This document shows positions 3,788 through 63,637 of a DNA stretch of 64,000 bases, in pieces. Each line of letters begins with the position of its first letter. Positions within the stretch are counted from its first letter, which is position 1. Under the pieces are notes generated by a model, which was given only the letters and a program-made list of their open reading frames with translations, was not told the DNA's origin and did not search any database. This stretch comes from Parazoarcus communis (GTDB lineage: Bacteria > Pseudomonadota > Gammaproteobacteria > Burkholderiales > Rhodocyclaceae). The DNA is taken from the NCBI RefSeq assembly GCF_003111665.1, contig NZ_CP022188.1, positions 2,604,001 to 2,668,000 of the forward strand. Direction: 5' to 3'. Made by a program: the position numbers and the translations under genes.

Positions 3788-5242
3788 TCAAAGCGCTTTA
3801 CGCAGACTGACCGGCGGGATATTGAGTGATTCGCGGTATTTGGCGATTGTGCGCCGCGCGACCACGATACCCTGCTGGCCCAACAGATCGGCAATCTTTG
3901 CGTCGGACAGGGGTTTCTTCCTGTCTTCGGCATCCACCAGCTGGCGAATCAATGCACGAATCGCCGTAGAGGAGGCCGCACCACCGGTGTCAGTGGCAAC
4001 GTGACTGCCGAAAAAATACTTGAGTTCGAATACGCCGCGCGGTGTCGCCATGTACTTCTGAGTGGTGACACGCGATACGGTGGATTCATGCAGCTCGAGC
4101 TGGTCCGCGATCTCCCTGAGGGTCAATGGACGCATTGCCACCTCGCCATGATCGAAGAACTGTCGCTGCTGGTCAACGATGGCCTGAGATACACGCAAAA
4201 TGGTATCGAAGCGCTGTTGTACGTTCTTGATCAGCCAGCGTGCTTCCTGCAGCTGGCCGGTGAGGCCGCCGCCCTGGCCGCGGTTCTGCTGCAGCAGGCT
4301 CGCGTAGAGCTGATTGATGCGCAGGCGTGGCATGGCTTCGGCATTGAGCGACACCGTCCACCGGTTGCGGATCTTGCGCACGACGACATCGGGCAGCACG
4401 TAACGGGTTTCTTCGTTGGAATGCTGTGAGCCCGGGTGCGGGTCGAGTCGGCAGACCAGCGCCTGGGCATCGCGCAGGGCGTCGTCGTCGCACCCGGTGA
4501 GGCGCTTCAGCTTCGCAAAGTTTCGTTCGGCCAGCAGTTCGAGGTGCTGTTCGACAATGACCAGCGCCAGGTCACGGCAGCTGCCTGCAGGCATGGCCCG
4601 CAGCTGCAGGCCGAGACACTCCTGCGGGGTGCGTGCACCAATCCCCGCCGGTTCGAGCTGCTGCACATGTCGCAGGGCAATCGCGAGGTCGTCGAGGTCG
4701 TAGTCGAGCTCGGGCGGGAGCAGTTCGAGCAGGTCTTCAAGTTCCTGGTGCAGGTAGCCGTCGCTATCGAGTGCTTCGATGATGAAGCGCACCAGCAGGC
4801 GGTCACGGTCCGACAGGGGGGACAGCGCAACCTGCTGGTCGAGATAGTCGCGCAGCGAGGTGCCGGCGGCCTGGAACTCCTGGAAGTCGCTGTCCTCGTC
4901 GTCGTCGCTCTTGCTGCTGGCGCCGCTGCCGGTGCCCGACCAGTCCATGCCTTCGTCAAAGTCGGCCGATTCGTTCTCGTTGCGGGGCTCGGCTTCCTGG
5001 GTGGTCTCGGTGCTGGTCTCGCGCGGGGTCTCGGTTGCGGGCTGCGCATCGTTGCCGACAGCGGCCGGTGCGAAGTCGCTGCCGTCGCCGTCTTCGCGCT
5101 CGAGCATCGGGTTTTCCAGCAGAAAGCGTTCGATTTCCTGGTTGAGCTCGAGCGTGGAGAGCTGCAGCAGTTTGATGGACTGCTGAAGCTGCGGAGTGAG
5201 CGTCAGGTGCTGCGAGAGCTTGAGCTGAAGGGTCGGTTTCAT
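3788..5242 (-). CDS. rpoN: RNA polymerase sigma-54 factor (484 aa)
   Basis: Sigma-54 recognises -24/-12 promoters and needs AAA+ enhancer-binding proteins such as NtrC. Region I (1-50) is the Gln/Leu-rich activator-interacting segment. Region II (50-130) is long and acidic. The core-binding and HTH regions follow, and the C-terminal RpoN box ARRTIAKYRE is intact near residue 465. The length is normal. It lies between lptB and hpf on the minus strand with short gaps, the standard proteobacterial arrangement. The factor is directly relevant to this window because a -24/-12 match precedes the ammonium-transporter fusion near 60.1 kb. Confidence 0.97.
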   Translation of the reverse strand: MKPTLQLKLSQHLTLTPQLQQSIKLLQLSTLELNQEIERFLLENPMLEREDGDGSDFAPAAVGNDAQPATETPRETSTETTQEAEPRNENESADFDEGMDWSGTGSGASSKSDDDEDSDFQEFQAAGTSLRDYLDQQVALSPLSDRDRLLVRFIIEALDSDGYLHQELEDLLELLPPELDYDLDDLAIALRHVQQLEPAGIGARTPQECLGLQLRAMPAGSCRDLALVIVEQHLELLAERNFAKLKRLTGCDDDALRDAQALVCRLDPHPGSQHSNEETRYVLPDVVVRKIRNRWTVSLNAEAMPRLRINQLYASLLQQNRGQGGGLTGQLQEARWLIKNVQQRFDTILRVSQAIVDQQRQFFDHGEVAMRPLTLREIADQLELHESTVSRVTTQKYMATPRGVFELKYFFGSHVATDTGGAASSTAIRALIRQLVDAEDRKKPLSDAKIADLLGQQGIVVARRTIAKYRESLNIPPVSLRKAL

Positions 5243-59240: not shown

Positions 59241-60002
59241 TCACCCAGCGAGTTCGACGACGACCGGTGCGTGGTCCGAAGGGCGCTCGAGCTTGCGCGG
59301 CGCCTTGTCGACGGTGCAACTGCTGCAATCGGCCTGCAACGCGGGCGACACCAGGATGTGGTCGATGCGCAGACCGAAATTGCGCCGGAAGGCCATCATT
59401 CGATAGTCCCACCATGAAAAGCTGCGCTCGGGCTGCTCGAACAGCCGGAAGGCGTCGATGAGCCCCAGTGCGGTGAGGGCGCGGAAGGCCGCGCGCTCGG
59501 GCTCTGAAACGTGAATCTCGTCCTTCCAGTCGGGATGTGCATCGGCCGCTTCGGGGGCGATGTTGAAGTCGCCGGTCAGGACCAGTTTCGGATACTGGCG
59601 CATCTCTTCCTTGACCCATTCGGTCAGGGCCGAAAGCCAGCGCAGCTTGTATTCGAACTTGTCGGAGCCGACCGCCTGACCGTTCGGAAAATAGCCGCAG
59701 ATCACCCTGACGCCATCGATCGTAGCCGCAATGATGCGCTTCTGTTCGTCTTCGAAGTCCGGGATGTTGCGCACGACAGCGTCCATCGGTTTGGGGCTCA
59801 GGATCGCCACACCGTTGTAGGTTTTCTGTCCGATAAAGGCAGCGTGATAGCCCGCCGCTTCCAGTTCGGCGACAGGAAAGGCCTTGTCCTCCATCTTCAG
59901 TTCCTGCAGGCACAGGGCATCGGGCTTGTTGGCCGCCAGCCAGTCGAGGACGTGAGGCAGGCGGACCTTCAGGGAGTTGACGTTCCAGGTGGCGATTTTC
60001 AT
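59241..60002 (-). CDS. xth: Exodeoxyribonuclease III (253 aa)
   Basis: AP endonuclease and 3'-5' exonuclease of base-excision repair. MKIATWNVNSLKVRLPHVLDWL, LQELKMEDKAFP (metal-binding Glu), LTGDFNIAPE, SWWDYRMMAFRRNFGLRIDHILVS and PSDHAPVVVEL (catalytic His) match the ExoIII family throughout. The length is normal. It diverges from the ammonium-transporter fusion across 242 bp and is followed at 7 bp by the Crp/Fnr gene, probably co-transcribed. Confidence 0.95.
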   Translation of the reverse strand: MKIATWNVNSLKVRLPHVLDWLAANKPDALCLQELKMEDKAFPVAELEAAGYHAAFIGQKTYNGVAILSPKPMDAVVRNIPDFEDEQKRIIAATIDGVRVICGYFPNGQAVGSDKFEYKLRWLSALTEWVKEEMRQYPKLVLTGDFNIAPEAADAHPDWKDEIHVSEPERAAFRALTALGLIDAFRLFEQPERSFSWWDYRMMAFRRNFGLRIDHILVSPALQADCSSCTVDKAPRKLERPSDHAPVVVELAG

Positions 60003-60109
60003 GAAACTCTTATGGCACCGGGCGACGCGCGCTTGCGTCAGGCCGACCGGTGCGACGGACAGTGGGAACAGCGCCTATTGTGCCATGAGCGTCGGCGCAA
60101 GGTTCGGAG

Positions 60110-60125
60110 CGGCACTCTTCTTGCT
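60110..60125 (+). promoter_or_regulatory. Sigma-54 -24/-12 promoter match
   Basis: CGGCACTCTTCTTGCT fits the sigma-54 consensus (TGGCAC-N5-TTGC[A/T]). GG at 60111-60112 and GC at 60123-60124 are spaced by the required 10 bp, and only the first base differs. It points toward the ammonium-transporter fusion, with transcription expected to start near 60136, about 110 bp before the ATG. Confidence 0.6.
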
Positions 60126-60144
60126 GACAACGAGGGAGCATCCG

Positions 60145-60228
60145 CCTGCACCGTGTGCAGGCTGGCCTAATGCACCAGGCTGGTGCGGTCGATGGGGCGT
60201 ATCGCCCCATCCCGTGCGGCAGGCACGG
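60145..60228 (+). repeat. Four consecutive stem-loops in the leader
   Basis: Four short perfect inverted repeats follow each other: CCTGCAC/GTGCAGG (60145-60161), GCACCA/TGGTGC (60172-60186), GATGGGGCG/CGCCCCATC (60191-60211) and CCGTGC/GCACGG (60212-60228). The last ends at the ribosome-binding site GGAG (60227-60230). They could fold in a 5' leader started at the sigma-54 site, or be protein-binding palindromes. Confidence 0.5.
60171..60187. promoter_or_regulatory. NtrC-consensus palindrome
   Basis: TGCACCAGGCTGGTGCG contains GCAC-N5-TGGTGC, the core NtrC-binding pattern known from glnA regulatory regions. It lies 58 bp before the ATG but about 36-50 bp downstream of the start site predicted from the sigma-54 match, an unusual position for an enhancer. 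Confidence 0.5.
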
Positions 60229-60244
60229 AGAACGGGATGATCCG

Positions 60245-63200
60245 ATGAGTGCGGTCGACATTGATGTGATGTGGGTGGTGTTGTGTGCGGGCCTGGTGTT
60301 CCTGATGCAGGCGGGCTTCCTGTGTCTTGAGTCCGGGCTCACTCGCAGTCGCAATGCGATCAACGTCGCGATCAAGAACGTGGTGGACTTTGCGGTTGCG
60401 GTGGCGCTTTACTGGGCGTTCGGATTCGCGCTGATGTTTGGCTCGTCAGCGGCCGGACTGACCGGTACCGATCACTTCATGCTTTCGGTTGGACATGGCA
60501 GCACGAGTGCGCTGGCTGCCTTCTTCCTGTTTCAGGCCATGTTCTGTTCGACTGCGGCGACGATCGTTTCCGGCGCCGTTGCGGAGCGCATGCGCTTTTC
60601 TGCCTATCTCGGTGTGGCTGCGATCATTGGCGGTTTGATCTATCCGGTGTTCGGTCACTGGGCCTGGGGTGGCACACTCGGCGGCGAACGCGGCTGGCTG
60701 GCAGCCCTCGGTTTCATCGACTTCGCGGGTTCAACGGTCGTTCATGGCGTCGGGGGCTGGGTTGCACTGGCCGGCGTACTGATCATCGGCCCGCGCAGCG
60801 GACGCTTTGATGCGGAGGACAGGGAGCAGCCCATCTCGGGCGGCAATCTGCCGCTGGCGATGCTCGGTGTCATGCTCCTGCTGTTCGGCTGGCTGGGGTT
60901 CAACGGCGGCAGCACGCTGGCGCTCGACGGACGGGTGCCGGGCATTCTGGTCAATACCGTGCTGGCAGCGGTGGCGGGCGTGCTCGCAGGTCTGGCCCTG
61001 GGCTGGCGTCAGCGCGGCTACGCTGACGTGGTTCATACCCTGAATGGCGGCATTGCAGGTCTGGTCGCGGTGACGGCGGGGGCGCACGTGCTCGATTCCG
61101 GCGCGGCGCTCATTGTCGGCGCAGGCGGTGCGCTGGCGATGGTGTCCTGCCATGAGTTGCTGCTGCGATACCGCGTCGACGACGCCGTCGGGGCCATCCC
61201 GGCGCATCTTGCGGCAGGCATATGGGGCACGCTCGCGGTTGCACTGTTTGCCGACCCGCTTGCGCTGGGTACCGGCCTCGGGCGCGGGGAGCAGTTTCTG
61301 GTGCAACTGCTCGGGGTGGTTACGTGCGGCGTGTGGTCTTTCGGGCTGGCCTGGGTGCTGCTGCGCGGACTGGACCGCTTCATCCCCCTGCGAGTCTCTG
61401 CGGAGGAGGAGGTTCTCGGTCTCAACGTGTCGGAACATGGCGCGCGCACCGAACTGCTCGAGTTGCTGCGGGCGATGGAGGTGCAGGAAAAGACCGGCGA
61501 ACTGTCGGTACGGGTGCCGGTCGAGCCGTTTACCGAAGTCGGGCAGATCGCCTCCGCATACAACCGCATGATGGAGGCACTGGAGCGTGCGGTGGGGCAG
61601 ACCCGCGCCATCATCCGCGATGTGCGCGATGGCATTGTCACCTTTGGTCAGGATGGCCTCCTGCGCAGCCTGAATCCGGGCGCGGAGAAACTGCTTGAGG
61701 TGCAGGGTGCAGACGCTGTCGGCATGCCGCTGGCCAATCTGCTGGCTGACCCGCCGCTGCGGCCGGCGCGTCAGATCGAACGGCTGATGGGACTGCAGGA
61801 CAAGATGGAACTGCGACTGCACCGGCAGGGGAAGACGCCCCGTGTGCTCGAGATCTCGGTCAGCGAGGGCCGCGCACAGGGTGAGAAGGTCTATACCGGA
61901 TTGATGCGGGATGTGACCGAACGCCGCCAGATTGCCGATCAGTTGCAGAACGAACGTGATCTCGCGCAGGTGACGCTGGCGTCCATCGGCGACGGCGTGA
62001 TCACGACCGACGAAACCGGCACGGTGCAGTACCTCAATCCGATGGCCGAGCGCCTCACCGGGTGGACGCTGGACGAGGCCAAGGGCCGCAACATCGCAAG
62101 CATCTATTGTCTCGAAGAGGAGCTCACCGGGCGTGCGCTGGAGAATCCGGTCCGCACCGTGCTCTCGAACGGCCGCGAGATGCGGGCGCCCGATCATGGC
62201 CTGCTCGTGCGCCGGGACGGGGAGCGCATTCCGGTGCAGGATTCCGCTGCCCCGATACGCAGCCGCCTGGGCTACCTGATCGGCGTGGTGCTCGTGTGTC
62301 AGGACGTCACTGTGACCCTGAATCTGACCCGCGAACTGACCCGGCAGGCCAGCCAGGATGCGCTGACCGGTATCCCCAACCGGCGCGAATTCGAACGCCG
62401 GCTTGCCGACCTGCTGACACCCGGCGTACCTCCAGGGACAACGCACATCCTCTGTTATCTCGATCTCGACCAGTTCAAGGTCGTGAACGACACCTGTGGC
62501 CACGTGGCCGGCGACGAACTCCTGCGTCAGGTGTGCACGCTGATGCGCGAACGCATGCGCGCAGCAGATCTGCTCGCACGTCTCGGCGGCGATGAGTTCG
62601 GCGTGATTTTCTTCAACTGCCCGGTGGAAAAGGCCATTGCGATGGCAGAGGGCTTCCGCGAGGCGATCCGTGCCTACCGCTTTGCCTGGGAGGGAAAGTC
62701 GTTCTCGATCGGCGTCAGCATCGGGTTGGTGCCGGTGACCGAAACCGAGCGCGAGATGGGCCGCATCCTCTCTGCCGCGGATACCGCCTGTTATGCGGCG
62801 AAGGAGGGCGGGCGCAACCGTGTGCACGTCTACCGCCCCGATGACGATCAGTTGATGGAGCGCCACGGCCAGATGCAATGGGTCGCGAGACTGCATGGCG
62901 CACTCGACGAAGACCGGTTGCGGCTGTTCGTGCAGCCCATCGTGCCGCTTTCGGTGGCGCACTCCATTCACTACGAGGTGCTGGTGCGGCTGGAGGAGGA
63001 CGGACGCCTGATCAGCCCGGGGAGCTTCATTCCGGCTGCAGAGCGCTACAACCTGATGCCGCGCATCGACGAATGGGTGTTCCGTAATGTACTCGCGTGG
63101 GTGAGCGACACTTACCGCAAGGAGGGTCGGGTCGAGGGCACCTGGTGCATCAACCTGTCGGGAAACTCCCTGAGTGACGAACGTCTGCTGGAGGACATCT

Positions 63201-63637
63201 GTGCCGGCCTGGTGCGCGCAGCGCTGCCGCAGGGGGCAATCTGCATCGAGATCACCGAAAGCTCGGCAGTGGCCAACCTGTCACGGGTGGTCAGCTTCAT
63301 GGGGGAGCTCAGAAAGCTGGGGTGTGCGTTTGCCCTTGACGACTTCGGCAGTGGCCTGTCCTCATTCGCTTACCTGAAGACGCTACCGGTCGATTACTTG
63401 AAGATCGACGGCTCCTTCGTACGTGACATCGCGACCGACCCGACAAACCGCGCCATGGTGCAGGCCATCAACACCATCGGCCACACCATGGGCCTGGTCA
63501 CGATTGCAGAGTTCGTGGAGAACGAGGCAGTTCTGGAGGTCTTGCGCGAGATTGGCGTCGATTATGGGCAGGGCTTCCATCTTGGCGTGCCCAAGGCGCT
63601 GTCAGAGATGGGGCGGGTGCGCATGATGCCGCGCTGA
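60245..63637 (+). CDS. Ammonium transporter fused to PAS-PAS-GGDEF-EAL (1130 aa)
   Basis: Membrane sensor joining an Amt channel domain to c-di-GMP turnover. Residues 5-380 form about 11 helices of the Amt/Rh fold. Asp159 (IDFAGSTVVHG), the twin histidines His167 and His321, and the gate phenylalanines Phe100 and Phe219 match the conducting E. coli AmtB pore. A HAMP-like linker (395-447, ending FTEVGQIASAYNRMMEAL) leads to two PAS domains (about 450-560 and 575-690). GGDEF is intact at 781-785 with RxxD at 772-775. The EAL domain has EVL (911-913), EITES, DDFGSG, LKIDGS and AEFVE, so catalysis is plausible. The ATG at 60245 has GGAG 14 bp upstream, and the Amt fold starts at once. It is monocistronic. 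Confidence 0.93.
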   Translation: MSAVDIDVMWVVLCAGLVFLMQAGFLCLESGLTRSRNAINVAIKNVVDFAVAVALYWAFGFALMFGSSAAGLTGTDHFMLSVGHGSTSALAAFFLFQAMFCSTAATIVSGAVAERMRFSAYLGVAAIIGGLIYPVFGHWAWGGTLGGERGWLAALGFIDFAGSTVVHGVGGWVALAGVLIIGPRSGRFDAEDREQPISGGNLPLAMLGVMLLLFGWLGFNGGSTLALDGRVPGILVNTVLAAVAGVLAGLALGWRQRGYADVVHTLNGGIAGLVAVTAGAHVLDSGAALIVGAGGALAMVSCHELLLRYRVDDAVGAIPAHLAAGIWGTLAVALFADPLALGTGLGRGEQFLVQLLGVVTCGVWSFGLAWVLLRGLDRFIPLRVSAEEEVLGLNVSEHGARTELLELLRAMEVQEKTGELSVRVPVEPFTEVGQIASAYNRMMEALERAVGQTRAIIRDVRDGIVTFGQDGLLRSLNPGAEKLLEVQGADAVGMPLANLLADPPLRPARQIERLMGLQDKMELRLHRQGKTPRVLEISVSEGRAQGEKVYTGLMRDVTERRQIADQLQNERDLAQVTLASIGDGVITTDETGTVQYLNPMAERLTGWTLDEAKGRNIASIYCLEEELTGRALENPVRTVLSNGREMRAPDHGLLVRRDGERIPVQDSAAPIRSRLGYLIGVVLVCQDVTVTLNLTRELTRQASQDALTGIPNRREFERRLADLLTPGVPPGTTHILCYLDLDQFKVVNDTCGHVAGDELLRQVCTLMRERMRAADLLARLGGDEFGVIFFNCPVEKAIAMAEGFREAIRAYRFAWEGKSFSIGVSIGLVPVTETEREMGRILSAADTACYAAKEGGRNRVHVYRPDDDQLMERHGQMQWVARLHGALDEDRLRLFVQPIVPLSVAHSIHYEVLVRLEEDGRLISPGSFIPAAERYNLMPRIDEWVFRNVLAWVSDTYRKEGRVEGTWCINLSGNSLSDERLLEDICAGLVRAALPQGAICIEITESSAVANLSRVVSFMGELRKLGCAFALDDFGSGLSSFAYLKTLPVDYLKIDGSFVRDIATDPTNRAMVQAINTIGHTMGLVTIAEFVENEAVLEVLREIGVDYGQGFHLGVPKALSEMGRVRMMPR

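Follow-up and report, generated by a model that had tools for sequence, protein, structure and literature searches.

The 64,000-nucleotide stretch of Parazoarcus communis contig NZ_CP022188.1 analysed here (the window) encodes, at 60245..63637 on the + strand, one protein in which an ammonium-transporter (Amt) domain is followed by a HAMP-like linker, two PAS domains, a GGDEF domain and an EAL domain, as identified using Pfam. By sequence comparison, this protein is quite probably a receptor for ammonium within the sensor-Amt lineage, to which Ks-Amt5 and the protein of PDB entry 8qj3 belong, and carries a PAS-GGDEF-EAL output like that of RbdA. The initial annotation of the gene implied that such a fusion was novel. 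This part did not hold: the arrangement is not a new kind of system, since AmtE of the related bacterium Azoarcus olearius BH72 has an N-terminal Amt domain and C-terminal GGDEF/EAL domains and was described as a likely ‘transceptor’, an ammonium transporter joined to GGDEF/EAL (PMC8467165; this and the other papers cited by PMC accession are drawn on in excerpt), and since the PDB holds entries for an Amt-linker-GGDEF chain. An earlier account of the same architecture, which the annotation had named as a reason for doubt if it came with another role, is thus in print, but with a similar proposed role. The counterpart of the protein studied here in Azoarcus is most likely AmtE, and orthology to the BH72 protein is likely. 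What the present analysis adds to a known architecture is the lineage of fused Amts, the spread of its outputs and a conserved promoter box.

Gene and domain architecture

The gene occupies a single uninterrupted frame that runs from an ATG at 60245 to a stop at 63637 (1130 amino acids) and is already open from a GTG at 60155. Residues are numbered here either from the GTG (P0001) or from the ATG (P0002), the ATG number being the P0001 number minus 30. We consider the ATG the better start, because protein conservation among the aligned orthologous fusions sets in at that point and because residue 9 (ATG numbering) pairs with residue 9 of 8qj3 in a pairwise alignment. Two orthologues (L064 and L007) have in-frame ATGs further upstream, but the residues preceding MSAVDID vary among orthologues. 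A frameshift, or two separate genes translated as independent halves, which the annotation had listed as fatal to its proposal, is ruled out by the one open frame together with full-length matches in at least six of 61 genomes, its own included; the matches in other genomes likewise exclude a lone fusion created by misassembly. One genome (G004) has a TGA within the match, yet the frame in that genome (L005/L063) is open from upstream of MSAVDID.

The Amt domain (60269..61447, +) is matched by Ammonium_transp (PF00909) over P0001 residues 39-431 with 375 bits, and the twin histidines and phenylalanine gate predicted for it were all found (H167, H321, F100 and F219, together with W140 and S223, in ATG numbering). 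The linker that follows (61493..61585, +) matches HAMP (PF00672) over P0001 447-477 with 20.5 bits, under the Pfam cut-off of 25, so that ‘HAMP-like’, the term already used for it, is apt; the alignment with 8qj3 spans the linker as far as P0002 residue 446. Two PAS stretches were matched by PAS_4 and PAS_9, in agreement with the two domains proposed earlier. The first has approximate limits (61598..61918, +) that were transferred from homologue L052 (Pfam PAS 452-557), while the second (61979..62311, +) gave the best match, by PF08448 at P0001 609-719.

The GGDEF domain (62348..62821, +; PF00990, P0001 732-889, 128 bits) is intact, as had been noted, with an RxxD site spelled RAAD at P0001 802-805 shortly ahead of the GGDEF motif at 811-815. 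Across 13 aligned fusions the GGDEF motif is invariant, and R802 and D805 are nearly so. The EAL-type domain was also recovered (62888..63586, +; PF00563, P0001 912-1144, 209 bits). Its motif is spelled EVL, and it retains E941, N1000, E1032, D1062, D1063, K1083, E1119 and Q1139 (P0001), residues that we take to have catalytic roles. To judge from these motifs, the protein has the features expected of a diguanylate cyclase, namely a GGDEF motif with an RxxD I-site, and also those expected of an RbdA-like phosphodiesterase, a PAS-GGDEF-EAL arrangement with intact EAL residues.

An Amt domain of the fused lineage and its relatives

To place the Amt domain, a maximum-likelihood tree without a fixed root position was computed from 41 Amt domains, with Ks-Amt5, 8qj3, Af-Amt1 and AmtB among them. 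All 23 fused Amts, Ks-Amt5 and 8qj3 among them, lie on one side of one branch with support of 98/95. The 18 single-domain rows comprise the nearest hits, the genome’s own Amts and two PDB transporters, and are not a census. An earlier tree, built from 38 rows, likewise kept the fused rows together, with a contig-edge fragment (L043) among them; this fragment was left out of the 41-row tree, L037 was left out of both trees and of the residue comparison, and L030 was used without its first residues. In this protein a single chain carries both a cytoplasmic signalling output and an Amt domain, the latter grouping with the known sensor Amts and apart from transporters. It has the Amt fold and pore motifs of AmtB and Af-Amt1 (2nmr, 2b2f), but those proteins are single-domain, lie outside the fused clade and lack the glutamine, glutamate, asparagine and aspartate residues described below; the window protein falls outside their side of the tree and no PII gene is linked to it.

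Ks-Amt5 of Kuenenia stuttgartiensis (6eu6) holds two ammonium ions at an intramembrane site formed by Q24, E31, N47, D50, T51, T109 and T112 (PMC5764959). The equivalent residues in the alignment are Q22, E29, N45, D48, F49, T106 and S109 (ATG numbering), so that five of the seven are identical (those matching Q24, E31, N47, D50 and T109), one is a conservative change (T112 to S) and one is altered (T51 to F). The Q/E/N/D core of this site is complete in 20 of 21 fused rows, with three of the four residues in the remaining one (L054). It is absent from both PII-linked Amts of this genome, and three other unfused rows have two of the four. The single-domain Amts L030-L036, L038-L040 and L042 share the core with the fused ones. 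Like Ks-Amt5, the protein would have an Amt domain turned sensor, in the same clade and with most of the ammonium-site residues in common; Ks-Amt5 differs in its histidine kinase output, its bulkier helix 1 plug and its lack of PAS or HAMP domains (PMC5764959).

A second close relative is represented by PDB entries 8qj3, 8qj4 and 8qpf, ‘Ammonium transporter’ chains of 644 and 661 amino acids that read as Amt-linker-GGDEF by sequence. The 8qj3 chain, whose Amt part falls in the same clade, aligns with P0002 residues 9-446 (435 bits) and again within GGDEF (50 bits); unlike the window protein, it has neither a PAS nor an EAL match. These entries presumably correspond to Sd-Amt1 of Shewanella denitrificans, published in Science Advances in 2024. 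Amt fusions were reportedly also covered in a 2009 review by Tremblay and Hallenbeck.

Among named relatives, the closest ones found are Azoarcus sp. L1K30 (87% identity), an Azoarcus metagenome assembly (84%) and Parazoarcus communis SWub3 (81%). The full-length matches among the 61 genomes come from the five members of the genus that the set contained, and from one genome of another genus (G030, 77%); a further other-genus carrier (G480) matches with 79% over the Amt domain and linker. Among 150 genomes of the family, eight (own included) have an Amt match that extends across the linker and lies in a frame of at least 1140 amino acids (E <=1e-95), while the ninth genome to pass that threshold holds an unfused Amt in a 448-amino-acid frame. 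At the level of the class (369 genomes), at least 15 genomes, own included, encode at least 16 proteins with an Amt match through the linker, in frames of at least 672 amino acids. At the level of the phylum (398 genomes), an Amt match at E <=1e-75 that lies in a frame of at least 741 amino acids occurs in 20 genomes, own included; here domains were scanned for the protein itself and those of G424 and G073 only.

When the 15 class proteins other than our own were scanned for their outputs, six proved to be Amt-PAS-GGDEF-EAL, two Amt-GGDEF-EAL with no PAS match and one Amt-GGDEF, and the remainder comprised one Amt-histidine kinase, two Amt-histidine kinase-receiver proteins and three fusions of Amt to a methyl-accepting chemotaxis protein (MCP). 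Because the clade mixes enzymes of cyclic di-GMP (c-di-GMP) turnover, histidine kinases and chemotaxis outputs, the pattern fits a single sensor domain whose output has been exchanged, as far as predicted domains can tell. The three Amt-MCP fusions in the fused clade (L056:4901-7138, L058:4852-7104 and L059:4551-6767) are candidate ammonium chemoreceptors, for which a narrow literature search, too narrow to show absence, returned no paper. One genome (G179) encodes both an Amt-PAS-GGDEF-EAL protein (L050) and an Amt-MCP protein (L056), and in this organism one type of sensor may feed c-di-GMP and chemotaxis in the same cell. In L054:4879-8316 the EAL domain looks degenerate (DHFG for DDFG; 150 bits, compared with 209-227 bits in the window protein and five other scanned PAS-GGDEF-EAL homologues), while its GGDEF is intact, making this possibly a cyclase-only version.

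Promoter region and genome context

A sigma-54-type -24/-12 promoter box, CGGCACTCTTCTTGCT, lies at 60110..60125 (+), 119 nt ahead of the ATG. It recurs in all six orthologues (window included) with 0 to 5 changes, in an upstream stretch that is otherwise poorly conserved: mean identity within the box is 83% over 14 pairs (the window/L064 pair excluded), while the ungapped flanks of 60 nt reach 31% and 28%. Sites were judged against the commonly known consensus sequences for sigma-54, NtrC and NifA. Scored against the textbook sigma-54 consensus, from which it departs at 2-3 positions, the box ranks first in five of six orthologues and shares first place in L007; the exact match of the window to the orthologue-derived box pattern holds by construction. 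Conservation of a box of this type suggests expression under nitrogen limitation, in line with the 36-fold induction of amtE reported under nitrogen fixation in A. olearius (PMC8467165). Nitrogen-dependent expression is a reported property of AmtE and, for the window protein, a prediction from the promoter box.

Downstream of this box is an NtrC-like palindrome, TGCACCAGGCTGGTGCG (60171..60187, +), with one mismatch to TGCACCANNNTGGTGCA. It is found with at most one mismatch in three of six orthologues, window included. Over the window such a match is statistically weak (0.26 expected at <=2 mismatches; one or more arose in 24 of 100 shuffles), and the palindrome is also able to form a hairpin. 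No NifA-type site (TGT-N10-ACA, a pattern identical to its own reverse complement) turned up on the + strand when 360 nt spanning the start were searched in each of the six orthologues. The leader at 60144-60228 contains a run of perfect short palindromes with arms of 8, 7, 9 and 6 nt, and nothing in 59900-60400 scored above an Rfam gathering score as a conserved RNA leader. Strong folding of the leader is not general, as z-scores in the six orthologues spread from -4.4 in the window through -2.3, -1.25, -3.3 and -0.4 to -0.05.

The 4.89-Mb genome has four Amt matches and four PII-family matches. Among the three Amt genes besides the fusion gene, two lie just downstream of a PII gene, and neither the third nor the fusion gene has one nearby. 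Since two of the other Amt genes are PII-linked and the fusion gene is not, ammonium uptake seems to be covered by other Amts of the genome. Matches to nifH, ntrC and rpoN were found once each above cut-off; the rpoN (sigma-54) match lies within the same window, at 3797-5218 (-).

Output activity and alternative readings

The best PDB match of the whole protein is RbdA (PA0861) of Pseudomonas aeruginosa (5xgb), with 567 bits over residues 590-1150, covering the second PAS, GGDEF and EAL domains. The likeness concerns this PAS-GGDEF-EAL part; RbdA has no Amt domain and presumably has a membrane part of its own. According to a paper on PA0285, both enzymatic domains of RbdA are intact, and the protein acts mostly as a phosphodiesterase in vitro, an activity raised by GTP bound to GGDEF (PMC10874727). 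Because the output half is closest to RbdA, we expect by analogy, with modest confidence, that the window protein hydrolyses more c-di-GMP than it makes and that external ammonium tunes this activity. It is possible, though distinctly less probable than the receptor reading itself, that ammonium instead turns the module mainly to c-di-GMP synthesis and so favours attachment where ammonium occurs. The intact GGDEF and RxxD would fit such a role, as would the presence in the clade of 8qj3, which has a GGDEF but no EAL, and of another Amt-GGDEF protein (L057); the intact EAL residues and the proximity of the second PAS-GGDEF-EAL part to a predominantly hydrolytic enzyme argue for hydrolysis. In the text it covered, a literature search, which is no proof of absence, came upon no Amt-GGDEF or Amt-GGDEF-EAL protein that had been assayed.

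A related question is whether the Amt part still conducts. As a true transceptor, the word chosen by the AmtE authors (PMC8467165), the protein would transport ammonium while its c-di-GMP part reported the flux, and the retention of every pore motif would be compatible with this. The annotation had taken the pore residues to suggest conduction; they give no argument for it, since Ks-Amt5 keeps all of these motifs yet reportedly lacks efficient translocation (PMC5764959). Ks-Amt5 is plugged by three bulky residues, F27, Y30 and F34 (PMC5764959), of which the window protein keeps one, as F25, and replaces the other two by L28 and L32. This difference may favour conduction but decides nothing, while membership in the fused clade with Ks-Amt5, and the possibility of uptake via the PII-linked Amts of the same genome, speak against it, and on balance we regard a transceptor, as read from sequence, as unlikely. 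Somewhat less likely again is a more elaborate version, in which a receptor induced by nitrogen starvation conducts ammonium and flips the balance between cyclase and phosphodiesterase, so that flux, not just occupancy, is passed on to c-di-GMP by a three-fold sensor driving two-fold enzymes. The signal might also run from inside to outside, with the c-di-GMP/GTP state of a regulatory tail gating uptake by an assimilatory Amt. Contacts of loop 5 with the C-termini do matter for transport in assimilatory Amts (PMC5764959), but the kinase and chemotaxis outputs in the same clade make sense as receptors, and we consider this arrangement highly improbable. The probabilities that we attach to the receptor, conduction and cyclase readings overlap.

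Several observations count against an ammonium receptor under nitrogen control. Besides the loss of two plugging residues, the Q/E/N/D core is also present in 12 of 17 unfused rows (11 of 16 without fragment L043); as so many unfused Amts carry it, the core marks a wider lineage, not sensing by itself, and is ruled out as a sensor-only marker. The NtrC-like palindrome has 3-4 mismatches in the other three orthologues and its place downstream of the promoter box is unusual. In addition, an AlphaFold2 model built from four sequences had a mean predicted local distance difference test score (pLDDT) of 37.5, and was unusable and not used.

Under the favoured reading, that of an ammonium receptor with an RbdA-like output, RpoN and an NtrC-type activator would direct synthesis of the protein under nitrogen limitation, as the promoter box suggests. 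External ammonium would enter the trimeric Amt part by its outer vestibule and, given the conserved residues and the precedent of Ks-Amt5, would be held at the intramembrane site. Occupancy of this site may then shift the C-terminal helix and the HAMP-like linker and alter the pairing of the PAS-GGDEF-EAL parts, whose net activity is probably c-di-GMP hydrolysis; as in RbdA, the GGDEF domain would serve in part as a regulator that binds GTP. Because the lineage includes a proven ammonium sensor and the c-di-GMP output is in the same chain, it is a natural prediction that ammonium feeds c-di-GMP turnover. In this, the annotation’s proposal that external ammonium decides directly between a sessile and a motile state is upheld as to an Amt domain of the sensor lineage joined to a c-di-GMP output, while ‘directly sets’ goes beyond the sequence.

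Ammonium as an input seems to have been little noticed in a 2022 review of c-di-GMP stimuli, as the words ammonium, ammonia and Amt are all absent from it (PMC8846402). The protein offers a tractable case in which ammonium sensing would be coupled to c-di-GMP in a nifH-bearing bacterium. More broadly, one sensor domain appears common to c-di-GMP, two-component and chemotaxis outputs and, because it serves several of them, the lineage should help in studying how the fold of a trimeric channel can drive dimeric enzymes.

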